A stretch of 64,000 nucleotides of DNA from Trichaptum fuscoviolaceum (lineage: Eukaryota > Basidiomycota > Agaricomycetes > Hymenochaetales > Trichaptaceae): assembly GCA_910574455.1 (NCBI GenBank), contig CAJSYZ010000008.1, forward strand, positions 434,001-498,000, in the 5' to 3' direction. The notes under the pieces are model-generated. The model was given only the letters and a program-made list of their open reading frames with translations. It was not told the DNA's origin and made no database searches. Position numbers and translations under genes: made by a program. Below are positions 1 to 24,413 of the stretch, piece by piece. How positions within the stretch are numbered: position 1 is the first letter of the stretch; each line of letters starts with the position of its first letter.

Positions 1-3000
1 GCTCGCATCCGCGTCTCCAACGTCAAGATACAGGGAGAAATCCCTGCCAGTGACACCCGATCCAACAAGTTCGGTGTTCTTTCCCGCACTAAAATCTTCA
101 ATGGAATTGTAAGCTGCTAGGCGGGATCGGACCTTCTCCCAGTTTGATTCAGTAAAAAACGAGGAATTCGACAATAAGTTAACATAGTCGTCCGTATGAG
201 GCTGCCACAGAGCACTGGTGAAGTACCACTCAGCGCCACCAAACTCTTCTTTGATCTTTTGCAACCGGGCCACTTGCTTGTCGATTGCAACCTTGACCTG
301 TTCATGAGAAATTCAGCGAATAAAGCCACTATAAGAACTGAAGTAGATAGATACCGCGGTTGCCGCAAGAGCGAGGGCACCGATAGGCTTTCCTATTGTG
401 TTTTTATCCAGTACTTTATGCCGACCCAGGGCCAAGACTAGGTGTACGGACAACACTGAGATTACAAGATCAGAGCAGAACAACCCTTGCTTCTGTACTT
501 TCAGAGTCAATGCAGGGATACGAAGGGTGACATGGGGCAAATTTTTACATACCTTATCCATACTATGCCAGCTTTCCCAGAGGAATGGTTCAGCTTTCTT
601 CTTGTCGACCATCGTCTGCAACATCTTCACAATTTCTTCGGTCTCCACCGACTTAGAACGCTCGTTGCCGACGAAACTCGAAATTGATTGTTCGGCTTTC
701 TCGAACAATTTCTTGCGCCAACTATCAGAGCATCTCTGGGCTGCCTACAGGGCAGATCATACTTGATTCAAAATGGCCGATGAAAGACAATAAGGGATGA
801 CTCAACTAAAGAACAGATGTCGGCCAATTGCGTGTCGTAACTAAGTTCGACAGAATCAAACACCTTCCCCCACAAGGCTCCGATGGACTTATTGTCCGGG
901 TTTTGCCATGGAGTTGTGGACTTTCCAACTGCGCGATACAGCGAAGGCAGAAGAATGTGAGTCCAGCCTGCCTGAGTTCCGGGAGGGAGACACTGATTCG
1001 TTGCCCTTTTTTTGCCGGGAGCGCGGGATCCCTCCCTTCCGATACTATTTCTATCCTTGTCCTCAAGCCCTACAGATGTCTGCATTTCTGCAAGTTAGTG
1101 GATGTATATCATAGACATGATTTGATTAACGCACAGAGCTAGTAGTCCGAGAGACTTTGCGATGACCAAGATGAGCCTTGGTTGCGAGCACTTCGGGTTC
1201 AGGACTGATGGATACTGTCGTCATCGCAGGTGATTGTGCTCGTGGTGTTAGCGACACCTCACAACCACTTGCCTGTTAAAGGAGCCTTGAATTAGTACAC
1301 GAATCAATTGCAGCAATTAGCTCACACTTGCAATATGTTGCGCATGAGCCGCCAGAGACCTCTTCAAATTGCGAATAGAAGTAGAAGATTTCATCTGTAG
1401 CAATTAGAGGAATTGTTACCAAGAAAAGCTCGAAGAGAATTGAATACCAGTATATCAGCCTGAGAATGACTGTCTTGCAGTTTACTCTTGTTACTAGTAG
1501 TGAGGTTCAAATCCTTGTTGCTTAATCAGAAATGATATGAAATGGAGATTAGAAGGATTAACACTAACTGTCGAGGCAGCCTGTGATGACGGCTTCTTCA
1601 TATACACGTTCATGCTAGTCTGTTTTAGATAGTAAGGAAGTGATCTGAATATTGGGTGGAAATGCAAGAATTACCACGGCATGCGAGTTAGAGTCCGGCG
1701 GTGACTTCCTCTTCTTATTATTCGCGATCATGCTGTCCTACAATAAGCAAAGCTTAGTAGACGACCAGATCCTTGCCAAAGAAAGGGGTGCAGAAAGTTG
1801 TCCTATTGAGTGTCGATGCCTACACATACCTGCATCTGCAGATACAACGCCGGCGATTGCTCTCTATGTCCATCGACAGTAATACCCTCCTGACGAGATG
1901 ACAGGTGAGTAGTGAGGGGGTAAAAGCAGAATAAACTTACCGTTACATCAAGCTGGGAGTTGGCGATTCTCTGCATTTTCGCGCCCTATTCAGAGTACGG
2001 TTTGGTAAGTAATGAAGTAAAGATATGTCGACGCCGAAGGACACAAGAAAGTCCGGCACCAGATCCATGCTTTGATGTGAAACACTCACCTGAACGGCCG
2101 ATTGTCTCCTGATATTCTTCTTCTCCAGAGCACAAAGAAGGAAGGATAAGTAGCGCGAACGAAGCAAGACATTATGATGCCACTTACCAACGTTGTAGGA
2201 GCCTGCAAGTCGGAGAGAGTGTCGCGGGATAGCTTCCTTTTCTTCGATTTATTGCTGGCTCCATCCTGATACGATACAGAAACATTGTTAATTAGCCATC
2301 GTTGTGCATGGGACTCCACCGATGCATAGTCTCTGTGAATCGAACGATTTCTTTGAACTTTAAGCGGCACTCACATTGGCTTGGGGCGGTATTGTAAGTC
2401 TCCTCGCGTCCTAATTAAACGCACAATCAAAATATTAAGATTTCATCTGCCAGTCTAATGAATGCTTTAACCAACTCACATTATCAGTGTCGGAGTCAAC
2501 AAGATGTGCCGTCTGTCGCTCGCTCGCAAAGCTATTCTTTACACCTTGAAAACTCGTGAGGGTTACTGTCTCTCCTTCATCCTCCCAAGGACTAAAGTTT
2601 GCATCCTCTTGCACCGAGGCGGGGAGCCTAAATTTTCCTTGTGTCAGCCAGGCTCACAACTTGAAACAAAGATAAGGATGTGAGCATTATAAGTGAAGAA
2701 GCTGCAACGTTCGGGTTCATGATGATCTTGAAGAAGTGTGGCACGGCGGTGACCCGCCGGGCCGCCACGGTCGCTGCCACTGGCAGTGTCACTGGCGCAC
2801 GCGTGGCACGCTCAAACTGCCACTGGCAGTGGCGGGCGCATTCAAGCTATCAGTACTAGTACTACTAGTAGTAGTAGTAAGTAGTACTACAATGATAAGC
2901 TTCAAGTAGCTGAGTTTAAATCAAGCTTCACACTTACTATCAACTTGAATTTGTTTGAATTTGAAACTCATCTTTCGTACTATGATGCGAACGGTTGAGT

Positions 3001-4039
3001 AGTACGACTTCAAACTCACAAGTCAATATCTTCTACTATCTTCCTTGCGATCTCAGGATTTCTGCCCTCTCCGCCGAAGAAAGTGGATCCATCTGTGTTG
3101 CGAAGTGCCCTGACAGGTCGCTTTGTCTTATCGTTCCGTTTCGACGTATTGGGCGAGTCTATCATGTCTGTATCCTCACCAGAAAGACTGCTGTCCTGTC
3201 CTGCAAGCGTACTATGATAGCCAGTGCCTCCTATGATACGACTTGAAGCCTTTGCGCCCTGCACACAAGTACGGAAAGGAAGTGCACCTCTGGTGTCCTT
3301 TTTCCTCGCCTTTTTTGCGCGCTCTCTATCTGGTCCATCGGAATTGGCTGCATCATAACGTGAGTCAATATGTTCATCTTTCAAAACCTAAAGTCGTAAA
3401 GGTAATGCAACTTACGAACATAAAAGTTTGCATTGCCTTCAGCTTCACAAAAGCTGTCTTTTTCCTCGTTCGTTGAACCTGCAATGCCAATATCTGGTAA
3501 CTCGACTGTCGCTGTCTTGAAGATAAGGACTCACTAGCTTCAGGAGTGTCTTTCGGTTTTTTTAGCCCTCGTTTGTCAGTGCCAGCCAGCTTAGGTGCAG
3601 TTGAGCCCATCTGGGTGCGAATGTCAAGAGCCTTCGACAAATTCTTCTCAAGCTCCATCGTCTCCAGTATTGCTGTTTCCTGTTGCTCTGCTGCAGCTCT
3701 CTTTTTGCGTACCTTCTCAGATGCCTCTTGTTCTTTTGCTGCCCGTTTCTGTTCCGCATCAAGTTTTCTCTTCTCTCTCGCATCCGCGGCTTGTTGAGCC
3801 GCAGCTTCGCGCAGAGCTGCCCGTTCTTCCTTCTGTTTTTCCTTCTCCTCCTTTTCCCTCAATGCCTCACCACGCTTTGAGGCCTGCTCTTCTCTCCTTC
3901 TCTCCTTCTCTTCTTTCTCCCTCAATACCTCCTCTTTCGTTCGACGTGTTCTGAGTTTATTGACTATGGCTCCCGGGTGCTGATTGCTATTCTTAGCCCG
4001 CGTTTGTCTTCGAGTTGACATTCTTGTGCAGTGTTTCAA
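1..4039 (-). CDS. DUF6532-domain protein, multi-exon, 3' part cut by window edge
   Basis: Minus-strand gene reconstructed from about a dozen exons. The 5' exon (4039 to about 3500; likely start is the second ATG, MSTRRQTR, near 4021) encodes a basic/acidic coiled coil rich in KEEKERRR-type repeats. Later exons carry an NLS-like KSKKRKL near 2250. The DUF6532 domain begins near 1000: LLPSLYRAVGKSTTPW, then after an intron at about 800-745 AAQRCSDSWRKKLFEKAEQS, then PFLWESW, KQGLFCSDLVISVLSVHL, IGALALAATA and FGGAEWYF. These blocks match the order I know for DUF6532, a domain widely expanded in agaricomycetes with no established function. Introns fit GT-AG rules, for example 356-304 and 580-522. 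The frame stays open to base 1, so the C-terminus is outside the window. One junction near 3520 needs a very short intron or carries a small indel. The gene is divergent from the transposase and shares a 460-bp upstream region with it. Confidence 0.72.
2632..3016. repeat. Palindrome-rich large intron inside the DUF6532 gene
   Basis: Between the exon ending ARKIVEDIDL and the exon beginning LPASVQEDANFS lies an intron of about 385 nt, several times longer than its neighbours. It holds dense inverted words: CTGCCACTGGCAG near 2774, TACTACTAGTA at 2860-2870, a run of TAC/TAG steps to 2888, and TTCAAG/CTTGAA words. The flanking exons lack them, which fits insertion of the words into a tolerated site. 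Confidence 0.6.
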
Positions 4040-4498
4040 GTCGAGGCACGCTGACAGGTGCTATGAGTTTCGATGGTGAATCGAGTTGGCAAAGGTGCAA
4101 GTTGTAGTTGAAGTTGGAGATGAGGGCGCCTATTCAAGGAAAATTTACGCCCACTTGCACTTGCTGGCACTGGCAGTGCCAGTGATTGGCAGCCTTCAAG
4201 TTAGGCTGACTCGGAATGAGCCTGACTCAGACTCGGACTTGGACACTCGGATACTCAGGCTAGCTCTATTACTAGTACTATCACAGTGCTACTGGTACTA
4301 GTACTACTCACTGGCACTTGCAGGCTCACTGGCAGGCTGGCGGCGGTGCCACTGAGTCACTGACAGCCTGAGGCTGTGGCTACTCAGGCTACCGGTACTA
4401 CTACTAGTAGTACTACTAACTTCAAGTTGTTACTACGCGGGCGTCACCGCTGAGCGTGCCATTCAACTTTAAATTCAGCGTTCAATTTACTGGAACTA
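4040..4498. promoter_or_regulatory. Shared divergent upstream region, palindrome-rich
   Basis: This 460-bp stretch lies between the starts of the DUF6532 gene and the transposase gene and must hold both promoters. No clear TATA box was identified. Much of it consists of the palindromic words: CACTGGCAGTG at 4168-4178, GACTCGGACTTGG-like words near 4225-4245, and TACTAGTACTA-type words at 4270-4305 and 4390-4415. Confidence 0.5.
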
Positions 4499-7400
4499 AT
4501 GCCGGTAACTCGGCGAAGGCCCAAACCCGTTCATCTTACAGATATCTTCCCCCCGACTATTCGATGCACCTTCTCCTTCTGCAGCAGGAGGTTCAAGAAT
4601 CAATCCGCAAGGACAAGACATGAATATTCAGCTCACCCGTCATCATTTGCAACAAGACCTGCTGCTTGTGGTTACGACTTGGATTCCTCACCCAAGCGAC
4701 CCGCACGACCTTCGACACCTCAAGCTCTTCCCGGCTCTCCTGAACTTCCAACAGACTTGGAGGGCCATCATGAAGATGAAAGTGGCTGCAACTCTTCAAG
4801 TTACGACTACGACATTTCTATACTCACACAGGATATCTCGATGCTTAGCATAGGCCGAGACGAGCTGCTTCAAGATTTAGACGGTCCTGATTGCCTGTCC
4901 CATGCTGACACTGGAGATGACGAACTTGAAGACCAAGACCTATCTTCTGCTGATCTGGACTCCGACATTGGAGATTATGAAGAGAACAATGATAACTTAA
5001 AGGTGTATCACAGATATTTAAATGGTGCGCGCTAAGTATGATGTCCCCAGTTTACTTTAGCATTCTGACACCAAATATCGTGCAGCCACTCCATGCGATG
5101 AAGAAGGGAACTTCTTAGAAAAGGAAGAACCGCCCGTTTCACGGAACGAACCTGCGTCAAATGACTGGTTTCCCTATTCGTGCCGAGCAGATTTCGAGCT
5201 CGCAGATTTTCTCTATCGCGAAGAGCAAATGTCTGCTGGCAACATAACAAAGCTTCTCGGAATTATGAAGGCTTATCAACTAATTCAGTCCACGGAGAAC
5301 GCAAAATCTATTAGATATCCCGAATTGGACGCGACAGATCCCAATGATGACTCAAGTCTGGATACAGCTGGTGCACTGCTCGATGGAGATGCACAAAATT
5401 TGTACAAGATCATTGACACTACAAAAGTCGGTGATGTATCTTGGAAATCCTTCAGTAACTTCTACACTAACGACAATGGCCAAAAAGCGACAAACGAGAA
5501 CATCGAGTCATGGAAGAGGAAAGAATATGATGTATGGTATCGGGATCCTTTGGAAGTAATCCGAAATTTGGTGGATAACCCGGCTTTAGAAGGCGAATTT
5601 GACTTTGTCCCGTTTCGTGAATTTCAGACAAAGGAGGACACCAATAATATCAATGACAAAGAACGAGTTTTCAGAAATTACATGTCCGGGAATTTTGCTT
5701 GGGAACAGGCTGTAAGTCATGACTCATTAACTCGCACAGATACTTATTATCCTTGACTTAGAACAAGATCTACGCAGAAGATAAAGCAGTCCATGGATCT
5801 ATGTTCGTCCCGGTCATTTTAGGGAGCGATAAGACAACGGTTTCTGTTGGAACTGGCAATAATGAATACTATCCTTTGTATCTCTCGATTGGGAATGTAT
5901 CAAACAAGGCCCGGCGGTCCCAGAAACTGAATACAGTCCAGCTCATAGCATTTCTGGCAATACCAAAGAGTATGTGTTAATAGTGATCTATTCAATTGAC
6001 TTCTGATGCTTTGCAGCTGAGCGGCAATACGAAAAGTCAGATGACTTCCGGCACTTTCGACATCAGATCTTTCATTCGTCTATATCGAGGATCTTAATCT
6101 CGCTGAAATCCGCAATGATCATGAACACTCAGAAAACCATTCTCCGGTGCCCTGATGGTCACTTGCGTAGGTCGGTTTTCGGACTCGGCTCATATATAGC
6201 CGATTATCCGGAACAGGTCAGCCTTTGCGCCATATGTACTGGATGGTGCTGCAAGTAAGTACTACCGCCCTCAGGCTTTCCTGAAATCAAGCTCTGTGGT
6301 GATGACTTACTTTCGACATTATAGATGCACAGCGCCTCACAAGGACCTCGATAATCCGGAATTTGTATCAATTCCTCGAACAAAAGAGCTGCACGAACGA
6401 TTGATAGAACAGGTAGACGCCAACAACATGAATAAAGCAACAATTCGGAAAGAGTACGGATTCCACCAGGACATTGTGGTACGTGCTTCAAATTATTCAT
6501 TGGATGCGTATATTGCAACTGATACGTTGCTCCGTAGCCTTTCACCAATGACATTCCACGCGCAGATATATGCGATCTCATATCTCCGGACCTGCTGCAC
6601 CAAATCATCAAAGGCGTGTTCAAGGATCATCTTGTCGAGTGGATATGTCAGAGCTTGACCACGTCAGAGCTGGATATTGTGGATAAAAGGTGATTTTTTT
6701 CGCAAGTTGTTTAATGTAAATACCATTGCTAACATCCGCGTAGAATCAGAGTTGCTGCTCCTTTTCCTGGACTTCGCAGATTCCCCGAAGGCCGAGGCTT
6801 CAAGCAATGGACAGGCAATGATTCTAAGGCACTTATGAAAGTATGTGACCTTTTTATCTTGTTCGAGGCAGTGGTTTGCTGATATTTGATGCAATTTGCT
6901 TAGGTGTATCTTCCGGCTATCGTGGGCATTGCACACGATGATATGATTCGCACATTAAGTGCATTTCTAGACTTCTGTTACCTTGTGCGTCGGTACACGA
7001 TTACAGCCTCAACTCTTGATCAAATCAAAGCCTCTTTGGATCACTTTCACCGTTATCGGCAAATATTCATAGCTAAGGGCATCCGGGATAACTTTTCACT
7101 ACCACGACAGCATGCTATGGTCCATTATCCAACATTGATCCCTCTGTTTGCTGCACCGAGCGGGCTGTGTTCATCGATTACAGAGAATAAACATATTTAT
7201 GCGGTCAAAGAAACGTGGCGACGCTCGAACAGAAATGATCCCTTGGGCCAGATGATCACAGCAAACCAACGACTCAGCAAACTTATTGCATCGAGGTCAG
7301 ACTTCAAACGGCGTGGAATGCTAGACGATACGCTATCCGAGGCTACGTGGAAAGTTTTGCGAGATGTTCTGCGGAAGAATATGTCAGAGCCGGAGGAGGA

Positions 7401-8582
7401 TGATGCTGAGAGGATCCCGAATCAGAGGGAGCAGTTGCAGTGTATTGGTGTGGCAGGAGCAGCAGCCAATGATACAGATGATTTCTTCGATGGCACTGTG
7501 GGTAATCAAGGGCACAACGAAATTGCTGACCTGGATGATTTCAGCACTTCATCAGTGGAAGGACTGCAAAGTAGTGTTGTTCTTCATGATGTGGAAAATA
7601 CAGAACATCGGTTTTGCTTAGGTGGTAGAAGTGATCCTTCGAGCTTGATGTTAATGGCTTCGAAACAACGTCAGTAACACGAGCTTCAAATTGTGGCGCT
7701 GGATATCTGACTTATTCGTTGCTATCCTTACAGAGTCCAGTAAGCTGTACCCCAAACAGCTCAACGCTCTTGCGGCGATAAAAGGCCATCCGGAACTCCG
7801 ACAGCTCCGACGACTCATCAAAATATACTTATTCTGCAAGTACGAAAGGTGCAACTTGAACGAATTAGGATACTATGACCTCGGAAGCGCTTCTGAAAGC
7901 CTGATAGCCGAACAACAGTTTGCACTGGACATGGGCAATGACATTGCCATCTTCCATTCAGCTACCGCGTATTTCGCCTACCGCGGCGAATCAATTCCTA
8001 TAGAGCAAGCAATGAGGGAGGTGATCAGGTCCAATCCCTCTTGGCGCGGAAAACCACGACGTGATGTCGTTCTTGTCCAAGTTAGTTCTCGCAAAAAGGG
8101 GTTTGCAGGGATGCGAATTGCTCGGGTTATGCTTCTTTTCTCCTTCACCGCCAATGGAGAACGTCAGGAATGCGCCCTTGTCCAGTTTTTCAAGAACGTT
8201 GGAGACTCACCTGACAGAAAAACAAGAATGTGGATAGTCGAGCCAGAGTATGAGTCAGAGACCTCTACCGCGTGCCAGCGTAGTACTATTGGAAGTTGCC
8301 GTCAACCGCTGACTCGGACTCGCCGGAGTGACCTGAATGACACCTCCGACTCGGAGTCAGGCTACCCCCGTCACGGTGACTCAAAAAACTCCAAAGTTAT
8401 CCGTGATAGCTCTAGGGAGTATCTTCCGTTTAGCTCACCTCCTTGGGGTTCCAGAGGGTGATGAATGTCCTCCGAAGTCATTGACACCTGAGGAGTCCCT
8501 GGACTTTTACAATAGATTCTATGTTAACCGATTTGCTGACATGCACATGCATGAAACATTGTACGAAAGTAGGCAACAATAA
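4499..8582 (+). CDS. Plavaka-type DNA transposase, apparently intact, about 9 exons
   Basis: The protein has a single N-terminal C2H2 finger (CTFSFC...H-x4-H, residues ~22-45), an acidic linker, then the conserved Plavaka block order. These blocks are ATPCDEEGNF, DWFPYSCRADFELADFLY, YDVWYRDPLEVIRNLVDNP, FAWEQA-NKIYAEDK, VILGSDKTTVSVGTG, YYPLYLSIGNVSN, CPDGHLRRSVFGLGSYIADY, RADICDLISPDLLHQIIKG, RRFPEGRGFKQWTGNDSK, KVYLPAIVG, FSLPRQHAMVHY, GLCSSITENKHIYAVKETW, and near the end NPSWRGKPRRD and YVNRFADMHMHE. Introns at 5030, 5711, 5969, 6255, 6479, 6691, 6841 and 7670 all join in frame. A further intron near 8270-8380 probably removes palindrome-rich sequence before KLSVIALGSIFRLAHLLG. Plavaka elements are fungal cut-and-paste elements usually grouped with CACTA/EnSpm; the protein would bind element ends and catalyse transposition. 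I cannot assign the catalytic acidic residues by eye. No internal stop or frameshift outside splice sites was seen. Confidence 0.88.
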
Positions 8583-9353
8583 AGATAAACCCTCATTTAG
8601 CTCACAAAGTACCTTGAAACTTATGAAGTAAGGATATAACATTTAAATGTTCAGTGACGGATTATGGTACTAGCTATACTAGAATTGTAGTGTTACTAGT
8701 CGGTGCATCTTAGACTTCAAGTTCAAGTTGGATCATGTCGGATGCCACTGTCAGTGGCAGTGGTCAAAATTTCCCACTGCTGCAGTGCACTGGCAGCCTC
8801 AGGCTGAGTACTACTACTACTGGTACTAGTACTACTAGTATGAACATAGAAAACTTCAAGTAAAAAGTGTACAATAACATGGAACTTGCCAACAACTGGA
8901 AATGAACCAATAACCTGCCTCAGGCTGCTACTACTACTAGTACTACTTCAAGTTCTAATTTAACCATCTTGAAGTTGAAGTTCAAGTTGAACACAGACTA
9001 CTAGTAGTACTAGTCACGGTAGTACTATCAACTTGAAGCATATGCTATGAATAAATAAATAATTTTTTTGCAGTATATAGTAGTAATCAAGAAAACGATG
9101 TCACATAGTTGCTACTAGTACTAACTACCAATAGTGCAGCATAGTGCGAGAGGAGCTTTAAGTTAAACTTGAAAAGGGAGTAAGCACTGGCATAGAATGA
9201 GTAGTACTAGTACAATCCGAGTCCTTGACTTTTTGTCATAAACATAGTAAAACGAAATAAAAATTTAACACGGCCACAACTTAAACTTGAATCGCGCGCT
9301 GGTGAACCCTAGAACACTTCGTGTCGGGGAATGGTCCAATATGCAACCGCCAG
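8583..9353. repeat. Palindrome-rich spacer between convergent genes
   Basis: This is the 770-bp 3' region between the transposase gene and the next minus-strand gene. It contains CTCAGGCTGAG at 8798-8808, CACTGCTGCAGTG near 8775, several TACTACTAGTACTAC tracts, and AAGTTGAAGTTCAAGTTG near 8975. No gene is seen. Confidence 0.65.
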
Positions 9354-11179
9354 TTACATCGCCGAGCTCATATTGACATCCGAGTCGGTGTCCGTGATGG
9401 GATCCAATTTGTCGAGAAGAGCAAATAGGATTCCATAATCTGTTAAATAAAATGGACCATAATTACGAAGTAAATCGTCGACTGTCTTCAGGAGTAAAGA
9501 GTCAAAAATTTGCTCTGCCGGAATAAGGGCATGATCGATGTGTTCCATATCTTCGTGGAGAAATTCGGCGGCCCTGTCGAGTCTTTCCTTGTCTATATCT
9601 TTGCGATCAGCATCGTCAAATTGCCTAATGGCTCGAGTCACTTCGATAATGCCCAGCCTAGCAAAGTCCATCTCCCTGGAGAAGCGCTGCATTGCACCAT
9701 CATTCATGAGCAACAGATCCAGAAGCGAATCATCACAGAGGATGATTAAACATTTCCTGATCCAGTTGAACCTGCGCAGAACAACCGAATAATTTCCGTA
9801 TTCGCGCTGGATTTGTCGATTATTCTCCAATGAGGACGTTCCACCATCAGCCGAGTCGACGCCAAGAATATCCATTGACTTCTGAATGAGTCGATGAAAG
9901 TCAGCTAGAGCAGCTTCTCCACCGGCACGTTCAAGTTCACGTTTCCATCGACGCCGAGCCTCTCGTGCTGTTCCGGATTGAAAGACAGTCGGAGTCGCCT
10001 GAGTCGCAGAACAATTGACTTCTGCTTCTGAGAGTTGACCAACGGGCGACTTTGGCAATTGTTCCGCACGGCATTTGTCTAGGAAGACGATCCAATCCTT
10101 GCACTCGTTATATGACCAAATAAGTAGGGGGAGAAAGAACTTGAGCGCAAGCCTTGGGTTTCGGGGCCTGCTTGTAGAGCCTTTAAGATTCACGCCCACG
10201 ACTGGCGTAAAGTGCTTCAATTGAGCAGAGAGTTCACGACGAACATTTTCCTCGAGCTTTGTGCCTTTGATGTCGATCCTTATGGCAGAAAAGACAGATT
10301 TTGTCTGTATCAATCGATTGCCGGCCTCCTCATCCTCAAATTTACGTTGCCAACGCACGATTGCATGGTGTGAATGATATCGGGCGACTAAGCAAGACAA
10401 GAAATTATCCCAGATGACGTCCCCAGTGAAAACATTGATGAGTTTCCCTGACGGGAAAAAGCCGGGAAGAACAGATATGAACGCCGTGGCGACAGCAAGT
10501 CTTGATTCCTCCACACGCTTGCGGATAAGCAGCTCAAGTGGCTCCTCGGGCTATAGCGCATTACCATAAGAACAAGCGGTTAGAGACGTGCATTCAAGCT
10601 TTTGATTTAATTTGCAGCTTACCGTATAACGCATCAGGATAGCTAGTTCTTCACCTAGCTTGAAGATCATGTCCGTGTACTGGTATGTACTGATCCGAAA
10701 CTGGTCTAGCATCACAGCCGTCTTCCTCTGCAGAGCCTGTGCTTCCCTAACCCGGTTACTGATATACTGATTTGACGTATCAAAGTACCTCCCCAGCCGA
10801 TCAGCCAGAACAAGTGTTTCCTTGAAATCGTTCGACGAAAACCCGAAGCGATTTGCATGCTCTAGCTTGGACTCTAAGCTTTTGGTGATTGACTGGACCA
10901 CCGTGCTATCGATATATGCTCCCGAGCGATAACCAAAGGGTAGGTCCTCTGACAAGTCATTGAAGATAAGCCAAACCACACACTGAAATATAGATAATAT
11001 GTGGTCCTACCGAACTTAACCTCTACAGGATTTGTATACACTTCGTATTCGCTCTCGTCTTCGATGATCGCGGACTTTGAGCTGTGAGTGTTGAGACCAA
11101 AGCTGGATTCTGAACCGTCCTCGTCCTCGTCTGTGTCCAAGCAAGAGCTTGGAGTATCCCCGAGATCAGAACTTGACAT
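9354..11179 (-). CDS. Unrecognised long helical protein, three exons
   Basis: I do not recognise this protein family. Exon 1 (11179 to about 11032) encodes a Ser/Asp/Glu-rich start, MSSSDLGDTPSS followed by DTDEDEDGS. A 44-nt intron ends with TTTCAG near 10987. Exon 2 (to about 10621) encodes a largely helical stretch containing TVVQSITKSLESKLEHANRF. The intron 10620-10552 is followed by a long third exon beginning PEEPLELLIRKRVEESRLAV and ending DTDSDVNMSSAM. Total length is about 600 residues, all frames joining cleanly. There is no signal peptide or clear membrane helix. It is convergent with the transposase and divergent from the gene at 13126, both across palindrome-rich DNA, so it may be cargo of the same element. 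It could alternatively be a host gene that the repeats surround. Confidence 0.6.
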
Positions 11180-11730
11180 TTTGGAGATTTGATAGTGACT
11201 GAACGAAGAGCCTGAGCTACTTCAAGTTGGCAGTGCAGTGAGTACTACTACTAGGAATACTAGTAGTAGTAGTACTAGTAGTATGCCTGAGAGGAAAGTA
11301 ATGGCAAGGGTTATTCAAACGGTGAGTGAAGTTGGAATGAAGGTCAAGTGTCGCCACCGTGGCATGCCACCGGCAGCCTGAGTAGTACTAGTAGTAGTAG
11401 GCTATTACTAGTACTAGTAGTAGCCTGAGTGAGCCACTGGCAGTGAGTGCCACTGGCAGTGAGCCTGAGGGGCAACTTCAAGTTATTACTAATACTACAG
11501 TAGTAGAAAACGGGCCGAGCTTCGCCGGCAAGTCCCTTACTCCGAGTCCGAGTCCCCCATTTGTCAACTTGAAGACGTTCGCACGGGAGGCAGATTTCCC
11601 TGAGCGTTATCACGCAATTCCGGAACGCAGTGCCCTTCCTCCCAGAACTAGTAGCCTCACTGCCACTGGCACTGCAGTGGCAGCCTCAGGCTCAGGCTGA
11701 GCCTGAGTCACGGTATCACTGCCAGTGGCG

Positions 11731-12152
11731 CCACTGGATGAAGGATTTAGGACACCCGAAATTGAAACCCATAAGACCCCGCTTGGCACTCAGGCTGGCA
11801 AGCATTTAGGGAGGTTGAAGCCACCCGTCCACCGCCGGCCTTGAGCAGAAGTTCTGCCGGTCCATGGAGACCCGCGGTATAACTTACCTTTGAACTTGAA
11901 GGTAAGGTATCAGGGTGTACTTATGATATCTTACCTGATACTACTACTAGTACGGTAAGCAAGGCAGGCATTTAGGACGACTGTCCTAGACACGGACCAT
12001 CTGGCAGACCCTTCCCCTCTGCTAGATCCTGGAAATTTAGGGCCCGGGCAAGACGGAGAGTTTGGCTCCGAGCCGTGCCGTTTAGTACTAGTACTACATA
12101 CTACTTGTAGGACGAAAAAGCCGTTCTAAATCCTTAGTACGGGAAGCATAGC
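11731..12152. repeat. Degenerate copy of the ATTTAGGAC terminal-repeat family
   Basis: The left side, ACTGGATGAAGGATTTAGGAC (with the middle of the repeat missing) near 11732, faces an inverted partner at about 12121-12145 (TTCTAAATCCTTAGTACGGGAAG read on the plus strand). Several more ATTTAGG or GTCCTA words lie between them. It looks like an older, eroded relative of the adjacent MITE. Confidence 0.4.
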
Positions 12153-12207
12153 CTGAGTATGGTGGCTTCCGACTCAGCCTGAGCCGCAGGCTGCGTCACT
12201 ACTCTAG

Positions 12208-12592
12208 TGGATGCCTTCCCGTAAGAATTTAGGACGGCGGAGGCTGTCCTAAATCTTTGAAACTCCGTCAGGTACAGGTTTAGGACAGCCATCCTAAACC
12301 GTAAGCAACATCTAGGACGGGTCCTAAATTCCTTTCCGGTTGCCACGGTGAGGTCTGCCGGATTATTTTCATAGATAAAATTGCTTAAAATGGAAGCGGG
12401 TGCGTCACATAATCTTCACTTCTACTAAATATGGTATGTGAGAACGCTGCTGTAATGTTTAGAGCCCTTCCTTGATCTCAGTAATTTAGGACGACCGACG
12501 TCGACCGGAAAGTTGGCTCCGTTCCCGGATAATATTCGGAAGAGGATTTAGGATAAGAATCGTCGTCCTAAATCCTTACGGGAAGGCATCCA
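12208..12592. mobile_element. 385-bp MITE with about 30-bp terminal inverted repeats
   Basis: The left end reads TGGATGCCTTCCCGTAAG then AATTTAGGACG. The right end is its inverse complement, ending CTTACGGGAAGGCATCCA at 12592, with one mismatch over about 30 bp. The interior has more inverted ATTTAGGAC words (for example near 12250, 12285, 12318 and 12485) and no ORF. No convincing target-site duplication is seen (TAG on the left, GTA on the right). It is presumably moved by a transposase in trans; nothing in the sequence proves that this is the neighbouring Plavaka enzyme. Confidence 0.6.
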
Positions 12593-13125
12593 GTACCATC
12601 ATAATGATGATCACGGTGCCTCCGCATCATCATGCCGTGAAACACAAACAAGTATAGTACTACTATAGTACTATCCGGCGAGGACTCGGACTCCGAAGCG
12701 AACTGCGGCGGCCGAGCTGTCAAGTTGCTGAGATCATCAACTTCAAATTCGACTAGTAAGTACTAGTAGTAGTAGTAGTAGTACTAGTAGTTACGGTAGT
12801 AGTACTACTCGCAGCGGGTGCACTCATGCTGTGGCACTGCCAGTGCCAGTGAGGCTGGGAAGTCCTACTACTAGTAGTAGTAGTATCACTGGCATAGTAG
12901 TACTAGCCTGAGTACTTAAATTTAAATATAGTACTACTCTTCACGGCACTCCGTCAGCCTGAGTCACGGTGTGGCCTGCTGGCAGCGGTAGTATCCGACT
13001 TCCATCAACTTCTTCAAGTTCACGTTCCGACGGTGAATAGCTTTTAGTTGCCACTGGCAGCGGACCCCATCATGATGCCCCCCACATCATCTTGAAGCCA
13101 GCAACTCAACGACTATCCCTTCAGA

Positions 13126-16100
13126 ATGTCTGTTGTCCCTCACGCTAACATGCCAGTGCTACCTGAGCCTCCCAATCAAATCCAAATCAGGCTGCTACTG
13201 GGTCCAGATGATGCCAGACGAGCTGGTATGTAGTACATGTCTCAAAAACTAGTATTAGTAGTAATTTCAATTCTTTCACAAAAAGTCCAAACAGGACTAG
13301 TTTCTTCCGGCGAAAATGGAGCCCATCCGTGGCCCGAGCTTATAAAGACGCGGTCAGACATGGTGAAATGGATTGAATTTCTCATTCAGTTGGTACAGCG
13401 AGATGACAGTGGCAAATCAGCAATCAAGTAAGTGTCATTCATGTTGCCAGCCTTCAAAGTATGTGACCAGGACATTCTCTTGACAGCCTGCCAGTGAATG
13501 GGCCCGGCGTCTCCATGTCCGACTCGGAGTCTCTTGCAAGTGCAGGGCCCGGGTTGAGGTCACAATCGGAGTTTGAGGTCGGACTAGGAGTTGGCAGTGG
13601 CAATTTGACGTCTGCCACTGAGGCGGAACCAGACACATCCAATTTGGAATTGTGAGTAGTGTTGCCAGCCTGAGCTTAATTGCATCTTGATGACATTCCA
13701 TTCTACTGTCAGCGAGGCCGCCAGTGCCGGTGCCACTGGCAGTGGGGTGGCAAAACCTGGGTCGGACGTGGACTCCAAGCCGTCAAACAGTGTCGAAGAC
13801 TTGAAAACGAACCTGTGAGTGACATTGCCAGTCTGTGTAGATTGCTTCTTATCTCTTTCCTATACCCAACTAGCGACTTGTCAGTCACCATGCTCAATGG
13901 GATAGGGGGCGACTTGGACAAAGCGGGCAAGGAATGGACGGACATTGGAGGAAAGCTGGTCGAGACTGCCAAAGTTCTCAACCAGGTGATAACAAAACTC
14001 AAGGATGGAGCGGCAGCTCGGGCGGCGAATCCTGATGAAAAACAGAAAGTGGATGAACGGCTGGATCGGGCGATGCGGAATGTTGGATCTCAAGATCTTG
14101 AGAAAAAAAGGGAAGATCTGAAAGCCACGAAAAAAAAGGCGGCCAAATCGGAGAACACGGATTACTCGGAGACAATAAAGACCTTGCAGGAGAAAGTCGA
14201 TTCTCTCTCCAACGAGATACAACATATAAAGGACCAGGCAACCCTGAATTACCCGATGCTTGCGAGGGCTGCAGCTGAGGAGGGCATCCATGCGCTACAC
14301 TCCGTCATGGCAGCTAATGTTAGCAAAAGGCTTGACAGTCAATTTGATATGATTCGAAGCACCACCGACAAGGTGCTTCAAATGAACGAAAAGCTGGCTC
14401 GTTTGGAGACATTGGATGCTGAACGGAAGGCGGACCAGACATTGGATGCTGAACGGAAGGCGGACCGCTCCAAAGACGACCTTTTGACGCGGACTATAGC
14501 ATCGTTCGCTGTCATGATACGCGAGCTTCAAATCATTGCCGTAGCAGCTGAATCGGTAAGTCATCTTGAAAGCTATTGCAAAACAAATTAAACTCATGAG
14601 TTCTCACATAGAGCGAAGCGGCAGCTTGTAGTATTAAACTACGACACGTCTTCGAGGACGCCAGGAACATTCTTTATATGGCTTTTGCCATTGTTTTCCC
14701 AAACAAATTCAAGATCGAATCGGTTGCCCCTTTTGACATTACTGGTGATGGCGGTGTCAAGACAGCGGGGCTCATCAGAGGTGTAAACGAGCTTTACGCT
14801 GAGTTCACTGCCCAACCAACCATGCGCCGGGACGGAAAGGTTCCCATTGCAAGGCATCTGTTTGATGACCTGCTCACCGCTTTACCTGAAAGCCTCATAT
14901 CCTCAGAGGAAGCACGCTACGAAGAGTGGTTAGCAGGGATTGAAGACAAGTTAGCAGACTTCCGCGAGGAGGATACGACATACAAGGACGCGGATAAGGC
15001 GAAAAGCAAAGCAATGGCGAGGGTGGAGACGACAAATGACCCAAAGTGTGGTGACAAAGAGAAGGGCCGGGCCTCCAAGACGCTGAAGGAAGCCGAAAAG
15101 AGGCTGGAGAGCTTGGTAGAGGACGCGAGAGCAAAGCTTAAATCCAAATACCCCTTCACAAACTCCTGGCAGCCGTCGCCTGACGCAAAACCCATCGAAA
15201 AGTTCCGTTTCTTTCTTGTGCGCTTCTATCTTATCTTCGAATTCCATCGAAGGTTGTATGTCATCCTCAATCGCAAGCTGAAGAAGTTGGATTCACAACA
15301 GCCAGCCACCACACTTGACGAGCAGGAGTCCACATGGGATGCCAGCATAGATGACTTTACGTGCAAACCGTTCCCAAATCTTGATCCATCAGAAGAGGGT
15401 GTCCTCGATCTGAAGGACCTGCCTAAGTTCTATTTCGAGGAATTCTTTGCAAAGATGGCCGAAGAGGGCGACATCGAATACTATGGCTCTGAGGACATAC
15501 CCCATGCGTCGGCCAAAGGTTTTCCTCCAAAAGCTCTCCCAGCTGATATACAGCGCAGTTTTGAGGAAGTCTCAGCTTCTTTCGACCAATTATCCTTGAA
15601 CACACTAGCGGAAGTTGTCAAGCAGGCGAATCTCACGGAAGTCCCGGTGCCAGTGCGAAAGTGGCCGGAAAATGACGAAGACCGAAAAAAATTATCGAAG
15701 ATCCTGCATCTGGAGAAGCGGCGAAATACGCACAGGGAGAAAGCTGTTATCCTTTCCAACGCGATGCAGATGATTACGTCTTCTGAACATGTCGTTTTTG
15801 AGGTGATGAACGAGACTCCACTCAGGCAACATTTGAATAAACTTATCCACGACCGACATTATTATGGTGACGACGAATCTCTCTTCAAATTCATAGAAAA
15901 CGCACCATCCGTACTGCACCTGACAGCGGGGGAACCACTCTTTACCTATGAACAGCAGGACGTGCTTAAAAGGATATGCAAGATAGTGGGGAACCATGGC
16001 CCTTATGGTCGGGCACCTCAGTCTTATTTGGCTCTGCGCATGGACTGGGCAAAGGAAGTGCGTGAGCAAACACGGAAGCCTCCTAGTTCCAAGGAAGGAT

Positions 16101-16198
16101 TTGTGAATCCTTCCAATCCTCATTACAAAGAGCCATTTGAGTTTCGGATTACCGGCGAAGGCGTATCTCGACTCAAATCTTTGACGCCCTTGTCCTAG
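13126..16198 (+). CDS. Unrecognised large coiled-coil protein, six exons
   Basis: I do not recognise the family. The start at 13126 (MSVVPHANMPVLPEPP) is followed by introns near 13229-13284, 13429-13482, 13652-13712, 13815-13872 and 14556-14611, all GT-AG and in frame. Order along the protein: a short N-terminal helical block (MVKWIEFLIQLVQR), a Gly/Ser/Ala-rich linker, a long coiled coil (ATKKKAAKSENTDYSETIKT and IKTLQEKVDSLSNEIQHI) that includes a perfect 10-residue tandem duplication, and a large C-terminal domain of about 500 residues from NILYMAFAIVFPNKFKIESV to RLKSLTPLS. Total is about 900 residues. The linker exon coding ASAGATGSG is itself built from the CACTGGCAGTG word (13734-13744), and three successive introns start with related sequence. 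A cytosolic or nuclear scaffold-like role is only a guess. Confidence 0.65.
14407..14466 (+). repeat. Perfect 30-bp tandem duplication inside the coiled-coil gene
   Basis: Two identical in-frame 30-bp units (14407-14436 and 14437-14466) encode TLDAERKAD plus one residue twice. Identity without third-position changes implies recent duplication and keeps the heptad-like character of the coiled coil. Confidence 0.85.
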
Positions 16199-17140
16199 TA
16201 TACTACTACCCGTAGTATATGGTCACGGTATAAACTTCGTCGAGTCTATCTGTCTTCCTGATAAACAATGATGTTTCGACTTTGTCTTTCCGATAATAGT
16301 AAACAATGATGTGTCGTCTTTTTCTTGAATAAAACGCCTATGTCTTGCTTGATTGTGTGATGATATGACCTTCAACTTGAAGATATTTTGTAAATACTGA
16401 TCACCACATCTCATACGATGCAGCGCATCCCCAGGCTGCCAGGAGTATCTACTAGCCTACTAGTACTCGTACTAGTAGTACCCGAAGGCTTGTTTGTGTT
16501 GTGCTTCTACTTTAACATTCAAGTTTCGGGGACATACACCGTGTTAAAGTTCCTCTGGCTCAAGTTGCCTTCAACATCACTACTTCATCCCTTCAATGTT
16601 CCGGGGAGCAAGATGAAGAGGACATGGACGGCAAATTCTTCTGCCAGTGATGTCTGAGTCGGAGTCACTCAGGCTCACTGCCACTCAGGCTGCCAGTGCC
16701 AGTGGCACGCCGGTCACTGGCACGGTGACTTCAAGTTCAACTTGAAGTTGTGGCACTCACTACTAAGGCTGGCAGGCTGGCACTCAGTTGTCGACTTCAA
16801 CTTCAAGTTGTTGCTACCACAGGCATAGTACTTGGTGGACATTGAAGATGCTCAACACTGGCCGTAGTCACCATGCCATACAACCAGGCTCGTTAACAGA
16901 GAACTTCCTCAGGTTGTCTTACGTCCTGGTGTATTTTCTGTTTAACACTACGTTCTGCTCTCCAGGATTACATCTTGGCCCGCACCCTCCACTATTGATC
17001 GCATCCTACGCAATTATCGGAAAAAGGAACAGCCGCTGCCGTAGGATGTACAGTTGAGTTGACACGGGATCATCTTACACACTGGCACTGGCAGCCTAGG
17101 GCAGGAACCACCTTACAGACACACTTTAACCAATCATCCA
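16199..17140. repeat. Right-hand palindrome-rich flank of the transposon block
   Basis: Dense words occur at 16440-16475 (TACTAGTACTCGTACTAGTA type) and 16640-16830: GAGTCGGAGTC, GCCAGTGCCAGTGGC, AACTTGAAGTT at 16739-16749, and a CTTCAACTTCAAG run near 16795. After about 17095 (CACTGGCACTGGCAGCC) the words stop. This makes 17.1 kb the apparent right limit of the block. No gene is supported here. Confidence 0.55.
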
Positions 17141-18089
17141 AGATGAGTAAGCTCTATAATATCGTTGATGGCCTCAAGTGACTTTTCAGTAGCGAACTGA
17201 CGTAGTCATGGCCTCCTCCTCAACTACCACTGTATCCCAACGCCCAAGTCACCGCAGATTCTCTTCTTCACTTTTCTACCAATTTTCAACATCGAATTCC
17301 TCCTGCACGTCCCGATTCTCTCCCAACACCATGCGGGACCTTGTACAACTCTGATAGACCTCTTTCTTCCGCCGCGCATCTGCCGACTCGCGCTTTGCCT
17401 GTCTCGGCACGCTCAAATTGTTCTATCGGTTTCAACGCCTCGCGCAGCTCGCGTAAAACGTCTGCGCCTTACTTTGTTAGCTCCCTGTGGGTCGACGCGT
17501 TTCTACTCGTGCGCCGCTCTAGGCTCGTATGGAAACCAAGGGGGTAGGAGTTCGACCGCTTTTGCAGAGGAACGAAACCACTGCCGTCTACGCAATTTAC
17601 TGCGCCCACAGCAGGCGCCCCAATTCTTGACCCAGGATTCTCTCGCAGATTTATGCCGACGCGTATCCCCCCACCGACTAAAGCAATGGCGAGCACACAT
17701 GCGCACGCGTCCACCTCCACAGTTGACAACACAAACTTCTTCAGCGATTTGTGATGGTAGAGTGGTTACATCCGTAACCATATATCATGAGTGAACCTTC
17801 TCCGAGGGACAGGGCTATGCCAGAGAGCTCATCGTCAGTGGTGGCTGATGACCAGCTCAGAGAGCAGGACATTAAAACTGGTTTGCTGCACTTGCATCCG
17901 AGGTCCGCTCCTCTCAGGTTTTGAATTGCGAGACGCATCACCGACGTTTCGGATGTGCAAAGAGGCAAGTTACTGAACCGGCCCTCACAGGCACGAGGAG
18001 AGGATGTATGCGTGCAGTAATCAGTGAGCGAAAGCTACTACTGTACTTCTCGAGTAAGTTGTTCTTTTAATTTTTGAATCATAATACTC
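17141..18089. other. No supported gene; transition into decayed region
   Basis: The plus-strand text around 17209-17360 reads like a Ser/Thr-rich protein start (MASSSTTTVSQRPSHRR), but it hits a stop and no homologous continuation was found. The rest has no convincing coding signal. Confidence 0.35.
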
Positions 18090-18400
18090 ACGGGCTTCTT
18101 CAGCTTTGGAGCATCGGCACGGGGAATGTCTATACGTTCTCCGAGAACATCTGCATAAGATTTACGCCGAAAATTATATTGTCTTCTTTTCTTGGGGTGG
18201 GGGTAGGGGGATTGGACACATCCGTTCGCGTATGGAATCTGCAAATGGGTATGATTTTCTTCACATTCCTGTATCCCCGACTCATCAGTGACAACTTTCC
18301 AGTATGACTCCGACTTTCTTGTCACCGGAAGGAACGATGGCCGCGTCAGCTTCTTCTCGTTCCATCGTTCCTCTTTTCCTCGACCATCTCAAGCTCAACA
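18090..18400 (+). pseudogene. WD-repeat (F-box/WD, Cdc4-like) remnant
   Basis: Fragments of beta-propeller repeats appear in shifting frames: LWSIGTGNVYTFSE, then DTSVRVWNLQ (a typical WD strand d), then GYDFLHIP in another frame, then YDSDFLVTGRNDGRVSFFSF. Order and motifs resemble the last repeats of F-box/WD proteins. At least two frame changes and stops separate them with no intron that explains all of them. The assignment rests on short motifs only. Confidence 0.4.
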
Positions 18401-19651
18401 ATAAGCGGCCACAGGACTCGCGCTGAGCAGTCAGTCGGGACGAGTCTCTATCCCTACCGTCTACTCTCACTTCAGGGATCCCTGCTCAATCGACATCTAA
18501 TCCTAAGTTCGCCTGGCCTGAGCGGCGTAAAGAGCCCAAAAACATGGGAAGGATGCTGGAGAGGGAAGGTTGCGAAGTTGCGCGGTCGGATTCGTATATA
18601 CGGGGCTATGTATCACCGGGCAGTTTGATGCATCCCAATATTCCGCTTGCATGCACAAAGGTCGACAAAGCGACTCACAACTCAATTTGCAAATGCCGCA
18701 AAGGGAAAAATATAACTGCATTTTCGACATCATCCAAGTTGTTGTCAACTTGTCGTGTTCCCATTCCTTGCCAAACACCTCTGCCCCGCCACCATTGCCG
18801 CCTAAACGGAGAACACTCGGTTTCAATGTGCAGTATGAGTCCATCATCGGCCGACAGCGCAATTCCCTCAGCTCCGAGGACGAGAAACGCGCCTTCATGC
18901 AAATTACTCCTTCCGAAGCGGGTTGGGATGCATTCAAGTTGGCCCATTTCCCATTTTGGCACGGTTCTAGTTCAAGTTTCGGGTTGTGTACAGGGATGAC
19001 TGTTGTATGGTGAGTTACTCATGGCTTTCTTCGAAATCCTTCTAGAGCTGATGGAGCAGCTTCTTGTGCAGTGGGTTGTATCCTCCCGACTTCTTCGGAG
19101 TTAACATGACTCATTTTCTTGTTCGTTTGTGCTTAAAATGAAAAGAAGCCTTATAATCAAGTCATCCGGAAGAAATCATTTGTCATCTCCTACTATCAGT
19201 TCAACTTGCGGTTTATCCGAGTCATAGTACAAAAAAGCACTAATAGCTCCCTCTCTCTTTCTAGAAGAATGGGAAATCAGAAAACTGACTTCAACTACTT
19301 TGTATAAGTGTGAAGTGGGAGCGGGTATTGTCCCCAAGATCATCATCAAGCCATTCCACCGTGAATCATGTTCTCAAATCTTCGTACTATCCTTCTCATC
19401 CTCCTCTCCCTTGATTACGCACGCCTGCACCTCCGCACCGTCCTCCGCTTTCAGCTCGTTCAACGGTGGACAGCAAGGGCTCAAACGAAGGTACTTGTTT
19501 CATTCATATCAAGATCTGTACACTGACTTGTTGCTAGATACACAAGAAACTGCAAACGTTTCTTGATCTTCTCGGGGTACCACCAACACCTCTCTCCGAA
19601 TTACATCAATATAGGCTCCATAATATAGTTCCGATACAGTGTCGCACGGGC
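18401..19651. other. No recognised gene
   Basis: A 147-codon plus-strand ORF (18570-19013) and a 144-codon minus-strand ORF overlap it. Neither shows a family motif. The plus frame contains APPPLPPKRRTLGFNVQYES and a Trp-rich end and may be a decayed exon. The remaining sequence is AT-richer intergenic DNA. Confidence 0.3.
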
Positions 19652-20409
19652 TTGGATGTGGACAATGCAGTGACTGCAATATATGCATCATTGCCACAGG
19701 TACCAGCTAGTAGATTTGTCTCGATCGACATCGAGTGGGCAAGTGGCGGAGAAGGGCCCAATCATCGCGTGGACCTCATCCAACTCGCAGTTCAACACCA
19801 CATTTATCTAGTCAGGACGCATACTCTTACTGACCTTCCCCCTACGTTGGCGCAACTCCTTGGGGATGGTACAGTCATGAAAATTTCCGCAGGAATCAAC
19901 GGTATGAATAACTTATCTTTTCTCCTGCGAGGTGGCCTAACAGAAGAAATGGCAGGTGACGCAGTGCGTATAAAGCGCAAGTTTCGCACCTCTGTGCGCT
20001 CCTGTGTCGATCTGACAGATTGGGCACGCGTTGTCTACCCGGAAGTCTGGCCCAAAAACCCGACCTGGTCCCAACTGCTCTTAAACCCTCGTCTCTGGTT
20101 CCAGCATCCGACTCCGACTGTCAAGCTCGAAAAAATAGTGGGAGAAGTATTGAGGGTGAACGTCAAGAAGAGTAGTGAGGTCACAATGAGTGACTGGGCA
20201 GCTGACGAGCTATCAGCGGCACAAAAAGAGTGTAAGTTATCATTCTGTTGTTCAAGATCAACCATCTTCAAGTTCTCACTTGCATGATCTGCTGTACTGG
20301 AATACTAGATGCAGCTATTGACGTTCACAGCACGTTTGCTGTAGCTTTGGCCCTGAGCCAAAGCCACTCACCCTTACCGGATAAGTACATCAAGAACTTC
20401 GAGGCTTGA
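19652..20409 (+). CDS. 3'-5' exonuclease domain protein (RNase D/WRN-type DEDDy)
   Basis: Exon 1 runs from ATG 19652 to about 20230. An intron (GTAAGT to TACTAG, ending about 20309) leads to a second exon finishing with YIKNFEA at 20409. The DEDDy motifs are visible: motif I VSIDIEWASGG (Asp and Glu), VDLIQLAVQ, motif II MAGDAVRIKRKF, CVDLTDWARVV, then after VTMSDWAADELSAAQKE motif III YAAIDVHSTFAVAL (Tyr and Asp). This is the order found in stand-alone WRN-like exonuclease domains, which remove 3' nucleotides from DNA or RNA. Length is about 225 residues, the size of the bare domain. No helicase follows. All catalytic-type residues are present, so it may be functional despite decayed neighbours. 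The insertion ISAGINGMNNLSFLL before motif II is unusual and could be an unspliced short intron. Confidence 0.72.
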
Positions 20410-20659
20410 TCTAGTAGGCTGAGGCCCACCAGTAGCAGGTTTGACCAAATGTGCTTGAGTTATCGAGTAAATTGTTGTGCGCATGCTCTTGTCTTTCAAA
20501 GTTGCCAGGAGATTCATGATTAAAATTTATTATTGAATTGCCTTTTTTTCCCGAATGATCACCGTAGTCTGAGGTATCAAAGTGGTTTGGAAGATGTCGC
20601 CAATGGTGTCTGTCTGCTGTTCGGATTGCTTGCCATGATGATGCTTCCAGTGGAGCTTT

Positions 20660-20750
20660 AAATCTAAAATTGGAACTTGAAGAGTTCAAGTTCAAGTTGC
20701 CACCGTGACTCGGACTGCACTTGCACTTGAACTTGAACTTGAACTTTTTA
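20660..20750. repeat. Imperfect inverted repeat of TTCAAG/CTTGAA words
   Basis: AAGAGTTCAAGTTCAAG (about 20676-20698) faces ACTTGAACTTGAACTTGAAC (about 20724-20745), separated by a GACTCGGACTGC word. This is an isolated island of the palindrome vocabulary 3.5 kb beyond the main block. Confidence 0.6.
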
Positions 20751-21186
20751 CCACTGCGTCCCCTCAACGACACAGTGTACGTTCTCCAGTCTTGTTATGA
20801 GCACTTCTCCGCCATCCCCCACCCATTCCATAAGACCACTTATTGGCCTGAACAAGTTATGTTTTATCCTACCCTCAAGCTTGTATTGAACTCGCCTAGA
20901 CTTCAACATTTCCGAATGAACCAAAAAACGATAGTGTACGTCTGAGAACGTGCTTCTTGCTTGATCTTATCACTCACATTTGTCTTTAGTACCTGGAGAG
21001 GAGAAGGTGGGCGGCCTTGTTATAGTGAGAGGAGCTCCGACGTGCACGCTGAAGCGAGCATCTTCTACCTTTCGAACGACACCCGCTGAGGATAGGCCGA
21101 TACATGTTGCATCACCAACTGTTGTGATCTTCATCAAAAATTAGTAACAATCCTTCGTCTTCAACTAGAGTCGACACCGCCTTATA

Positions 21187-21574: not shown

Positions 21575-21839
21575 ACCTAGGCGCTACATCTAGTTCACAA
21601 GCATCGGACTACGGTGGCGAACATCTATGAGGGCATGCGAGGGAAGAGAATAAGCGCAACCTTTGAAGCCTCTGGAACTATAAGTACGGACTTCTCTTCT
21701 TGCTATTATATTACTAGGCTTATACTGGTTTATTCATCAGCGAAACCACATGCGTCTATTTCGGATACTTTGCTCTTCAAACATATCATATCAACACAGA
21801 TCTAACCGAAGCTAAATGTGTTAGACAATTATTGATCTG

Positions 21840-24328: not shown

Positions 24329-24413
24329 CAGTCCATTTAAGGCAGCGTCAGGACGCGTCAGTCGCCTTAAGCAAAAAGTAGTTTCCCTGATGTGAGATAG
24401 CATGACATAATCA

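Follow-up and report, generated by a model that had tools for sequence, protein, structure and literature searches.

The non-coding parts of a large DNA transposon in the fungus Trichaptum fuscoviolaceum are rich in 11-bp odd palindromes that obey a simple grammar. The element, of PlavakaB type, occupies the left part of a 64,000-nucleotide stretch that was analysed as a whole (the window; contig CAJSYZ010000008.1 of assembly GCA_910574455.1, positions 434,001 to 498,000 of the forward strand). Its palindromes, here called words, belong to tracts in which a dinucleotide D alternates with its reverse complement D′ and a single C or G (S) stands between them (D S D′ S D...). They are present genome-wide, have spread with transposon copies and show a polarity in which C precedes G; some copies differ in length by bases that are exact inverted copies of their neighbours. 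We suggest, giving the idea slightly less than an even chance, that two processes built the words, slippage by 3 and 6 bp and template switching at very small odd palindromes.

A grammar of dinucleotides and C/G linkers

An earlier note on this DNA described 11-mers made of a pentamer, a C or G, and the reverse complement of the pentamer, and all six words that it named were found in place. As a general rule this form is near chance. Odd palindromes outside the D S D′ S classes numbered 8 with an S centre and 9 with a W (A or T) centre between 2690 and 17130, with 6.6 expected for each (17 vs. about 13 in total), and 83 and 81 in a 190-kb sample with 87 expected for each; the sample consists of 19 stretches at preset coordinates, picked independently of the words. 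The in-class form, with S both in the centre and inside the arm, is the part that stands: 65 such 11-mers were found in 2690-17130 where 0.22 were expected, and 40 in the 190-kb sample where 2.9 were expected. Across the window there are 156 odd 11-mer palindromes (62.5 expected), 116 of them with C or G in the middle, and the excess is concentrated in 2690-17130, where S-centred 9-mers number 127 (35 expected) and W-centred ones 34 (30 expected). Against order-2 Markov controls, the same region holds 55 C/G-linker tracts of at least four alternating dinucleotides over ten classes (about 0.9 expected), compared with 2 A/T-linker tracts by an equal criterion (about 0.5 expected). Repeated TGSCAS, TTSAAS, TCSGAS, TAS and AGSCTS are examples read within the window.

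The shared pattern X-ACT-X′ S X-AGT-X′, also pointed out in the earlier note, spans four of the ten possible dinucleotide classes and holds for all four X genome-wide. In the window and the 190-kb sample combined, the four forms of ACT-N-S-M-AGT with complementary N and M occurred 26, 10, 21 and 22 times, whereas the 12 non-complementary combinations with an S centre summed to 27, none above 5, and the complementary forms with a W centre summed to 5. Complementarity rather than identity is thus demanded for all four N, which, with off-class palindromes near chance, speaks for strand switching. Rare non-complementary spacers rule out ACT..AGT protein half-sites with a free spacer. These counts confirm that the grammar is real and sharper than first described. 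It was too strong to say that the non-coding DNA is built from such words: tracts of at least four dinucleotides cover 17.7% of the intergenic gaps, and tracts of at least three cover 28.6% (gaps of 4354 bp, delimited by eye from a list of open reading frames, ORFs). The former figure compares with 0.39% in the rest of 2690-17130 and 0.19% in 24394-64000.

Near-misses of the 11-mers at inner sites exceeded expectation (72 vs. 17.4 over all linkers), by our own arithmetic about 6% per site, and related element segments are 19-28% divergent. By this comparison the tracts look younger than the families that carry them, and are either still being made or selected. That words never decay was rejected: the ACT frame has no A/T-centre excess, but the near-misses are there.

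The words could be maintained by selection as sites to which a protein of the transposon or of the host binds. They are dense in the gaps between the genes of a gene-bearing transposon, dimer sites typically have the form of S-centred dyads, and a mismatch excess of only about 6% per site would fit such constraint. We nevertheless regard this explanation as unlikely. N is free, yet N and N′ must be complementary; several classes occur side by side, and between families the islands can hardly be aligned; repeats near the element's termini look, by eye, like a different motif. An array with fixed contact bases does not describe words in which all four N occur with a complementary N′. The earlier note had proposed one protein, or one replication or repair process, that makes or recognises the words. 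A recognising protein is unsupported, since a protein cannot easily require complementarity of arbitrary N and N′; a process is plausible from the length differences described below. The words are more likely a mutational signature than a protein alphabet.

Abundance of the words in the genome

A scan of the single 59.09-Mb assembly returned 6213 TA, 3177 AA/TT, 2782 CA/TG, 1569 GA/TC and 1007 AG/CT 14-mers; rarer classes were AT (298), CC/GG (111), AC/GT (105), CG (75) and GC (51). Equal base frequencies would give about 7.0 per class (3.5 for self-complementary classes). A genome-wide count against chance had been named beforehand as a check, and the word totals are not at expectation. The CA/TG form, the one class searched with both kinds of linker, occurred 53 times with A/T linkers and 2782 times with C/G linkers. 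The CC/GG 14-mers listed are mostly one sequence, present also in the element at 21392. The part of the element within the window holds 15 CA/TG and 34 TA 14-mers.

Genome-wide counts are inflated by transposon copies, and many loci are paralogous. Two element segments each gave 40 scored matches (of 90 and 98 candidates), shown at 100% identity. Among 100 word places listed, all on C1, 30 lie by our own reading in intervals of young element copies, and a diverged copy and one further fragment account for another 10; the remaining 60 lie outside these intervals, some of them perhaps in further copies or fragments. The preset sample also carries the signal: 17 sparse stretches held 26 tracts of at least four dinucleotides, against a Markov control of about 4.8 for all 190 kb, and its most over-represented 8-mers, simple AT runs aside, include AACTTGAA, CACTGGCA, TACTAGTA and GACTCGGA.

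Ordinary genome stretches and barely alignable element DNA share one vocabulary. Loci L002 and L023 (72-81% identity to the carrier) have the same words in DNA that hardly aligns, as does L022, whose alignment with the carrier is only 97 bp near the right end; the one alignable exception among islands of other families is a 73-bp stretch of L002 at 75%. L001-L008 were chosen through a word match; for L002 the match was a CA/TG word, and independent evidence from this locus is therefore limited to the other classes.

The words could instead be remnants of one satellite, or of one tiny mobile element spread through the genome, as thousands of places, partly transposon copies, might suggest. Enrichment, however, extends to all four N variants and to several classes; almost none of the flanking DNA can be aligned between islands of different families, and a larger satellite unit with a fixed order was not seen. 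This reading is disfavoured and appears highly improbable. No fungal report of such words was found in a search by title and the start of the abstract, subscription literature lying mostly beyond that search.

Polarity of the linkers

C tends to precede G. CACTGSCAGTG occurs at 1800 places in the genome and CAGTGSCACTG at 113; CACTGGCAGTG occurs at 863+937 places and the reversed word at 18+17. Outer linkers of the 11-mers, tallied for four informative classes in two phases each and on both strands, were C..G in 174 cases (43%), G..C in 30 (7.5%), and C..C and G..G in 99 each (25% each). Hairpin stability is ruled out as the cause of this polarity, as predicted energies are equal for C..G and G..C words.

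Ordinary tri- or hexanucleotide slippage, as in microsatellites, with C/G differences arising by later point mutation, is a serious contender, if a somewhat unlikely one. Half of the outer pairs are C..C or G..G, many of the indels have lengths divisible by 3, 3-bp differences occur inside TA and similar tracts, and pure microsatellites such as (GCC)n are present in the genome. In simulations, however, direct duplication produced C..C and G..G only and so yields no C..G or G..C pairs, and random toggling would give equal numbers of these two, against the 1800 vs. 113 places seen. Mixed linkers were found by eye in 2 of 50 listed (GCC)/(GCG) places, compared with 83 of 100 listed TA places. A classical microsatellite, one unit in direct tandem, does not describe tracts in which C/G linkers mix and outer pairs are polarised.

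A simulated switch without base preference gave no polarity, whereas a switch that places C opposite G gave 41-66% C..G, the right tendency. Together with the observed polarity, these simulations favour a base-specific switch plus slippage; the model is incomplete.

Length differences between copies

A copy about 96.5% identical to the carrier (loci L006-L008) differs from it by ten indels within two word islands of about 680 bp together, of 5, 3, 6, 3, 27, 59, 6, 9, 3 and about 78 bp; seven or more of these lengths are divisible by 3. Outside the islands there are four indels in about 3.7 kb, omitting a 2-bp gap at the alignment end.

The clearest difference comes from the L002 family, in which two of eight copies read CACTG[CCAGTG]GCAC and six read CACTGGCAC. 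Read on the opposite strand, the six extra bases match the adjoining CACTGG exactly. They fit an inverted copy at 6/6 positions (simulated p 0.003) and a direct copy at 4/6 (p 0.46), which does not favour slippage; as a slippage loss, the difference could still be accommodated by it. Similar fits were obtained for L006 against window 2815-2835 (inverted 6/6, p 0.0085; direct 5/6, p 0.10) and for L008 against window 4390-4412 (inverted 9/9, p 0.0003), where the direct fit is also good (8/9, p 0.0035). Twelve short indels were tested against random insertions, one further 3-bp coding event being omitted; three fitted an inverted copy at p<0.01 and one at 0.07.

At alignment column 259 the two carriers of the extra bases share A with three non-carriers, two others have G, and L090 is noisy. 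If the root lies outside the carriers, the two-of-eight difference would be one gain, the gained form being the rarer state.

Among young, near-identical copies, L099 has a TA tract (12761-12789) shorter by 3 bp, one TAG unit, and in L100 the 12832 tract is adjoined by 8 additional bases, as compared over window 12720-12850. Small indels therefore do arise in recent copies.

Template switching as a proposed source of words

The words would be very short inverted duplications or triplications, left when DNA synthesis briefly switches strand. At D-G-D′, the growing 3′ end (D) could pair with D′ on the same-sense strand, copy backward for about 6 nt and return at the same dinucleotide, inserting the reverse complement of the adjacent 5-6 bp. 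A single step would turn XG into X-C-X′-G, where X′ is X reverse-complemented, and so make an odd palindrome of 11 bp centred on C or G; repeated switches and 3- and 6-bp slippage would extend it into D S D′ S tracts, and dense islands in non-coding parts of PlavakaB elements would be multiplied as the elements copy. A requirement for D at both switches would explain why only D S D′ S classes grow.

In the two-of-eight case, a 3′ end TG would pair with CA beyond G, back-copying would add C and then CAGTG, and the new TG end would match the point of departure, where synthesis could resume. The same path fits the 6-bp difference between L006 and the window. From these two differences we infer the switch path; gains as the direction of change, a two-step switch, its timing at replication and the origin of most tracts likewise belong to what we infer.

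Several observations weigh against template switching. Eight of the 12 tested indels do not stand out as inverted copies, among them the 8 extra bases of L100 (5/8, p 0.39) and six additional bases within coding sequence of L006 (4/6, p 0.18), and a self-complementary context in itself favours inverted fits. The comparison of the eight copies is unrooted, and with the root on the carriers' branch the two-of-eight difference would be a loss, possible by slippage between imperfect hexamers. Ten other young copies are unchanged within island 2690-2960, and fast change in the tracts is accordingly rejected over that island; they come from 12 loci, less L036, the window's own copy, and L038. For island 4130-4450, which served as query in the search for these copies, identity is selected for. 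TA, the commonest class, is weakly polar (56 vs. 24 in one tally, 56 vs. 48 in another, both strands taken); the simulated C-opposite-G switch overproduces G..C (21-34%, against 7.5% seen) and in one step yields no C..C or G..G. Hairpins of the 11-mer words are weak, at -0.3 to -0.8 kcal/mol with predicted 3-nt loops, and neither the restriction to C/G linkers (the absence of A/T) nor the polarity is fully explained.

The carrier transposon

Features of the carrier, with the basis of each assignment, are as follows.

1..24392 (part within the window), + strand: PlavakaB-type DNA transposon of 25.35 kb, delimited by where alignments between copies end and by 2-bp target duplications
955 bp left of the window (G000:C8:433046): start of the left terminus, CATCAGGG, from copy comparison
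2775..2879: word island with CA/TG and TA tracts; 6-bp and 3-bp differences from the approximately 96.5% identical copy L006
3016-4060 (- strand), 9354-11180 (- strand) and 13150-16198 (+ strand): cargo genes, limits by eye
4165..4428: word island with CA/TG, TA, AG/CT and AA/TT; 6-, 9- and 59-bp differences from L008, a 27-bp one lying just before
4454..8461, + strand: Plavaka transposase gene (ORF pieces, approximate exons), with PF18759; L023 is 81% identical over 6010-8269
8311..8380: word segment with GA/TC and AC/GT near the 3′ end of the transposase ORF, largely gapped against the relative L023
8716..9212: word island between the transposase gene and its neighbour, from the tract scan
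11243..11952: word islands between two cargo genes, left, from the tract scan
12083..13059: word islands between the two cargo genes, right, from the tract scan and the L099 and L100 comparisons
13518..13744: words in the 5′ part of a cargo gene, from the tract scan
16371..17093: word island 3′ of the cargo gene whose 5′ part holds words, from the tract scan
20685..20746: outlying AA/TT tracts within the element, from the tract scan
24383..24392, - strand: right terminal inverted repeat TTCCCTGATG, from copy comparison
24393-24394: target duplication TG, adjoining the right terminus

Comparison of three copies set the left border of the repeat, and comparison of two set the right. PlavakaB elements are defined in PMC12730594 by CATCA..TGATG termini, a 2- or 3-bp target duplication and a Plavaka transposase. 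Judged by its sequence the carrier fits this definition in all three respects: its ends are CATCAGGGAA..TTCCCTGATG, in agreement with 5′-CATCA..TGATG-3′; domain PF18759 was detected at 5061-5756 (E 5.2e-24, 85.5 bits against a cut-off of 26.3); and, by eye, the 2-bp duplication matches in all 16 copies with both termini read. The 16 comprise 13 copies plus the window copy, C11:2446 and C8:2173, out of 20 left and 20 right stretches, 3 on each side having no terminus and 4 left and 3 right no readable partner. The duplicated sequences vary (TA, TT, AA, TG, AT, CT, CG, CA). The passages on PlavakaB in PMC12730594 are silent on words of this kind.

A resemblance of CACT...AGTG to the ends of CACTA-group elements had also been raised. 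This link is unsupported, because the termini (CATCAGGGAA...TTCCCTGATG) differ and the target duplication is 2 bp and variable; the CACTA/EnSpm definition, with CAC..GTG termini and a 3-bp duplication, does not describe this element. ACT/AGT as target duplications of the carrier are ruled out on the same 2-bp, variable duplication. The words lie between the transposon's genes and not at its ends, and they occur near some insertion flanks, such as the left flank of the window copy.

Repeated transposon excision could also leave inverted additions. Hairpin opening leaves small inverted additions, P-nucleotide-like, and the carrier is a DNA transposon. Its duplications, however, are 2 bp and variable, no constant duplication was seen in the words, and the tracts hold a 3/6-bp period with alternating orientation; for the carrier, the one family considered here, excision footprints from hairpinned ends seem decidedly improbable.

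The tested ORF pieces of the cargo genes gave no Pfam match above cut-off. Within the element, the ORF at 19538-20287 has a weak match to a 3′-5′ exonuclease domain (PF01612, 20.9 bits, below the 23.6 cut-off), and 22530-23081, with HisKA (20.0 bits) and HATPase_c (18.4 bits) matches, both below cut-off, is possibly a captured host gene fragment. A 391-bp stretch at 12205-12595 shares its gap with words; its ends form an inverted repeat of 51 bp (82%), and it contains several ATTTAGGAC/GTCCTAAAT stem pairs, a second, different palindrome vocabulary. The idea that it is a separate mobile element was set aside; its 40 scored full-length copies, shown at 100%, may all lie within the carrier.

Other features of the window

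Beside the transposon, segments 24945-26398 and 30583-32061 are 74% identical, and the second contains an STE3 pheromone-receptor domain at 31140-31862 (E 1.4e-27); by these matches, this may be a mating-type pheromone-receptor locus. Together with Plavaka and STE3, named hits from species of Boletales and Polyporales indicate that the DNA comes from a mushroom-forming fungus. Several tandem arrays, with units of about 11-35 bp and of 22 bp, lie outside the element at 43478-45061 and 49413-49659. An inverted pair at 49740-50983 and 54136-55360 is 89% identical over 1.2 kb and encodes similar proteins of 244 and 249 amino acids, with no Pfam match on the one copy tested.

Discussion

Template switching at short inverted repeats has precedents. 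In rad27-deletion yeast, the events described in PMC5677150 include template switching and palindrome elongation at 21 loci, one case having a 1-bp spacer. As in the present proposal, a single event of strand-switching synthesis creates or lengthens an inverted repeat; the yeast cases are single events in a repair mutant, whereas the words here form a vocabulary across the whole genome, in 5-bp units that show polarity and have only C or G as linkers. Small inverted triplications (DUP/IN/DUP), reported in PMC13334657 with medians of 148/160/148 bp and 30-bp spacers, share the direct-inverted-direct order and microhomology at junctions; the units here are about 5 bp, with 1-bp spacers, and repeat in tracts. 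For RNA hairpins in rRNA genes, PMC8794818 describes single switches that create a perfect stem, and loop inversions. Those cases have longer loops; ours are DNA words with predicted 3-nt loops. PMC7954356 is cited beside these template-switch precedents.

A further comparison is with hairpin-forming triplet repeats of the CNG type, which have two pairing bases and one mismatch in every 3 bp. The tracts have the same arrangement, but their third base is C or G, mixed along the tract, and their units comprise many dinucleotide pairs.

REV1 is a deoxycytidyl transferase that prefers to insert C opposite template G. One copying activity of this kind might write the whole vocabulary, if the strand switch always added C first, opposite a template G, a narrower proposal to which we give a slender chance. 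A fixed first C would explain both the restriction to C/G linkers and the position of C 5′ of G. If it were true, the tracts would preserve, on the scale of a fungal genome, the fossil record of a template switch that depends on REV1.

Should template switching be right, an error known as single events in repair mutants would have left thousands of self-reinforcing words in a normal genome. The strict base rule, with C/G linkers and C before G, would point to the preference of one enzyme, and a comparison of strains would make the mechanism testable. Dyad-symmetric DNA, usually taken for regulatory sites, could then appear without selection and be spread by transposons.

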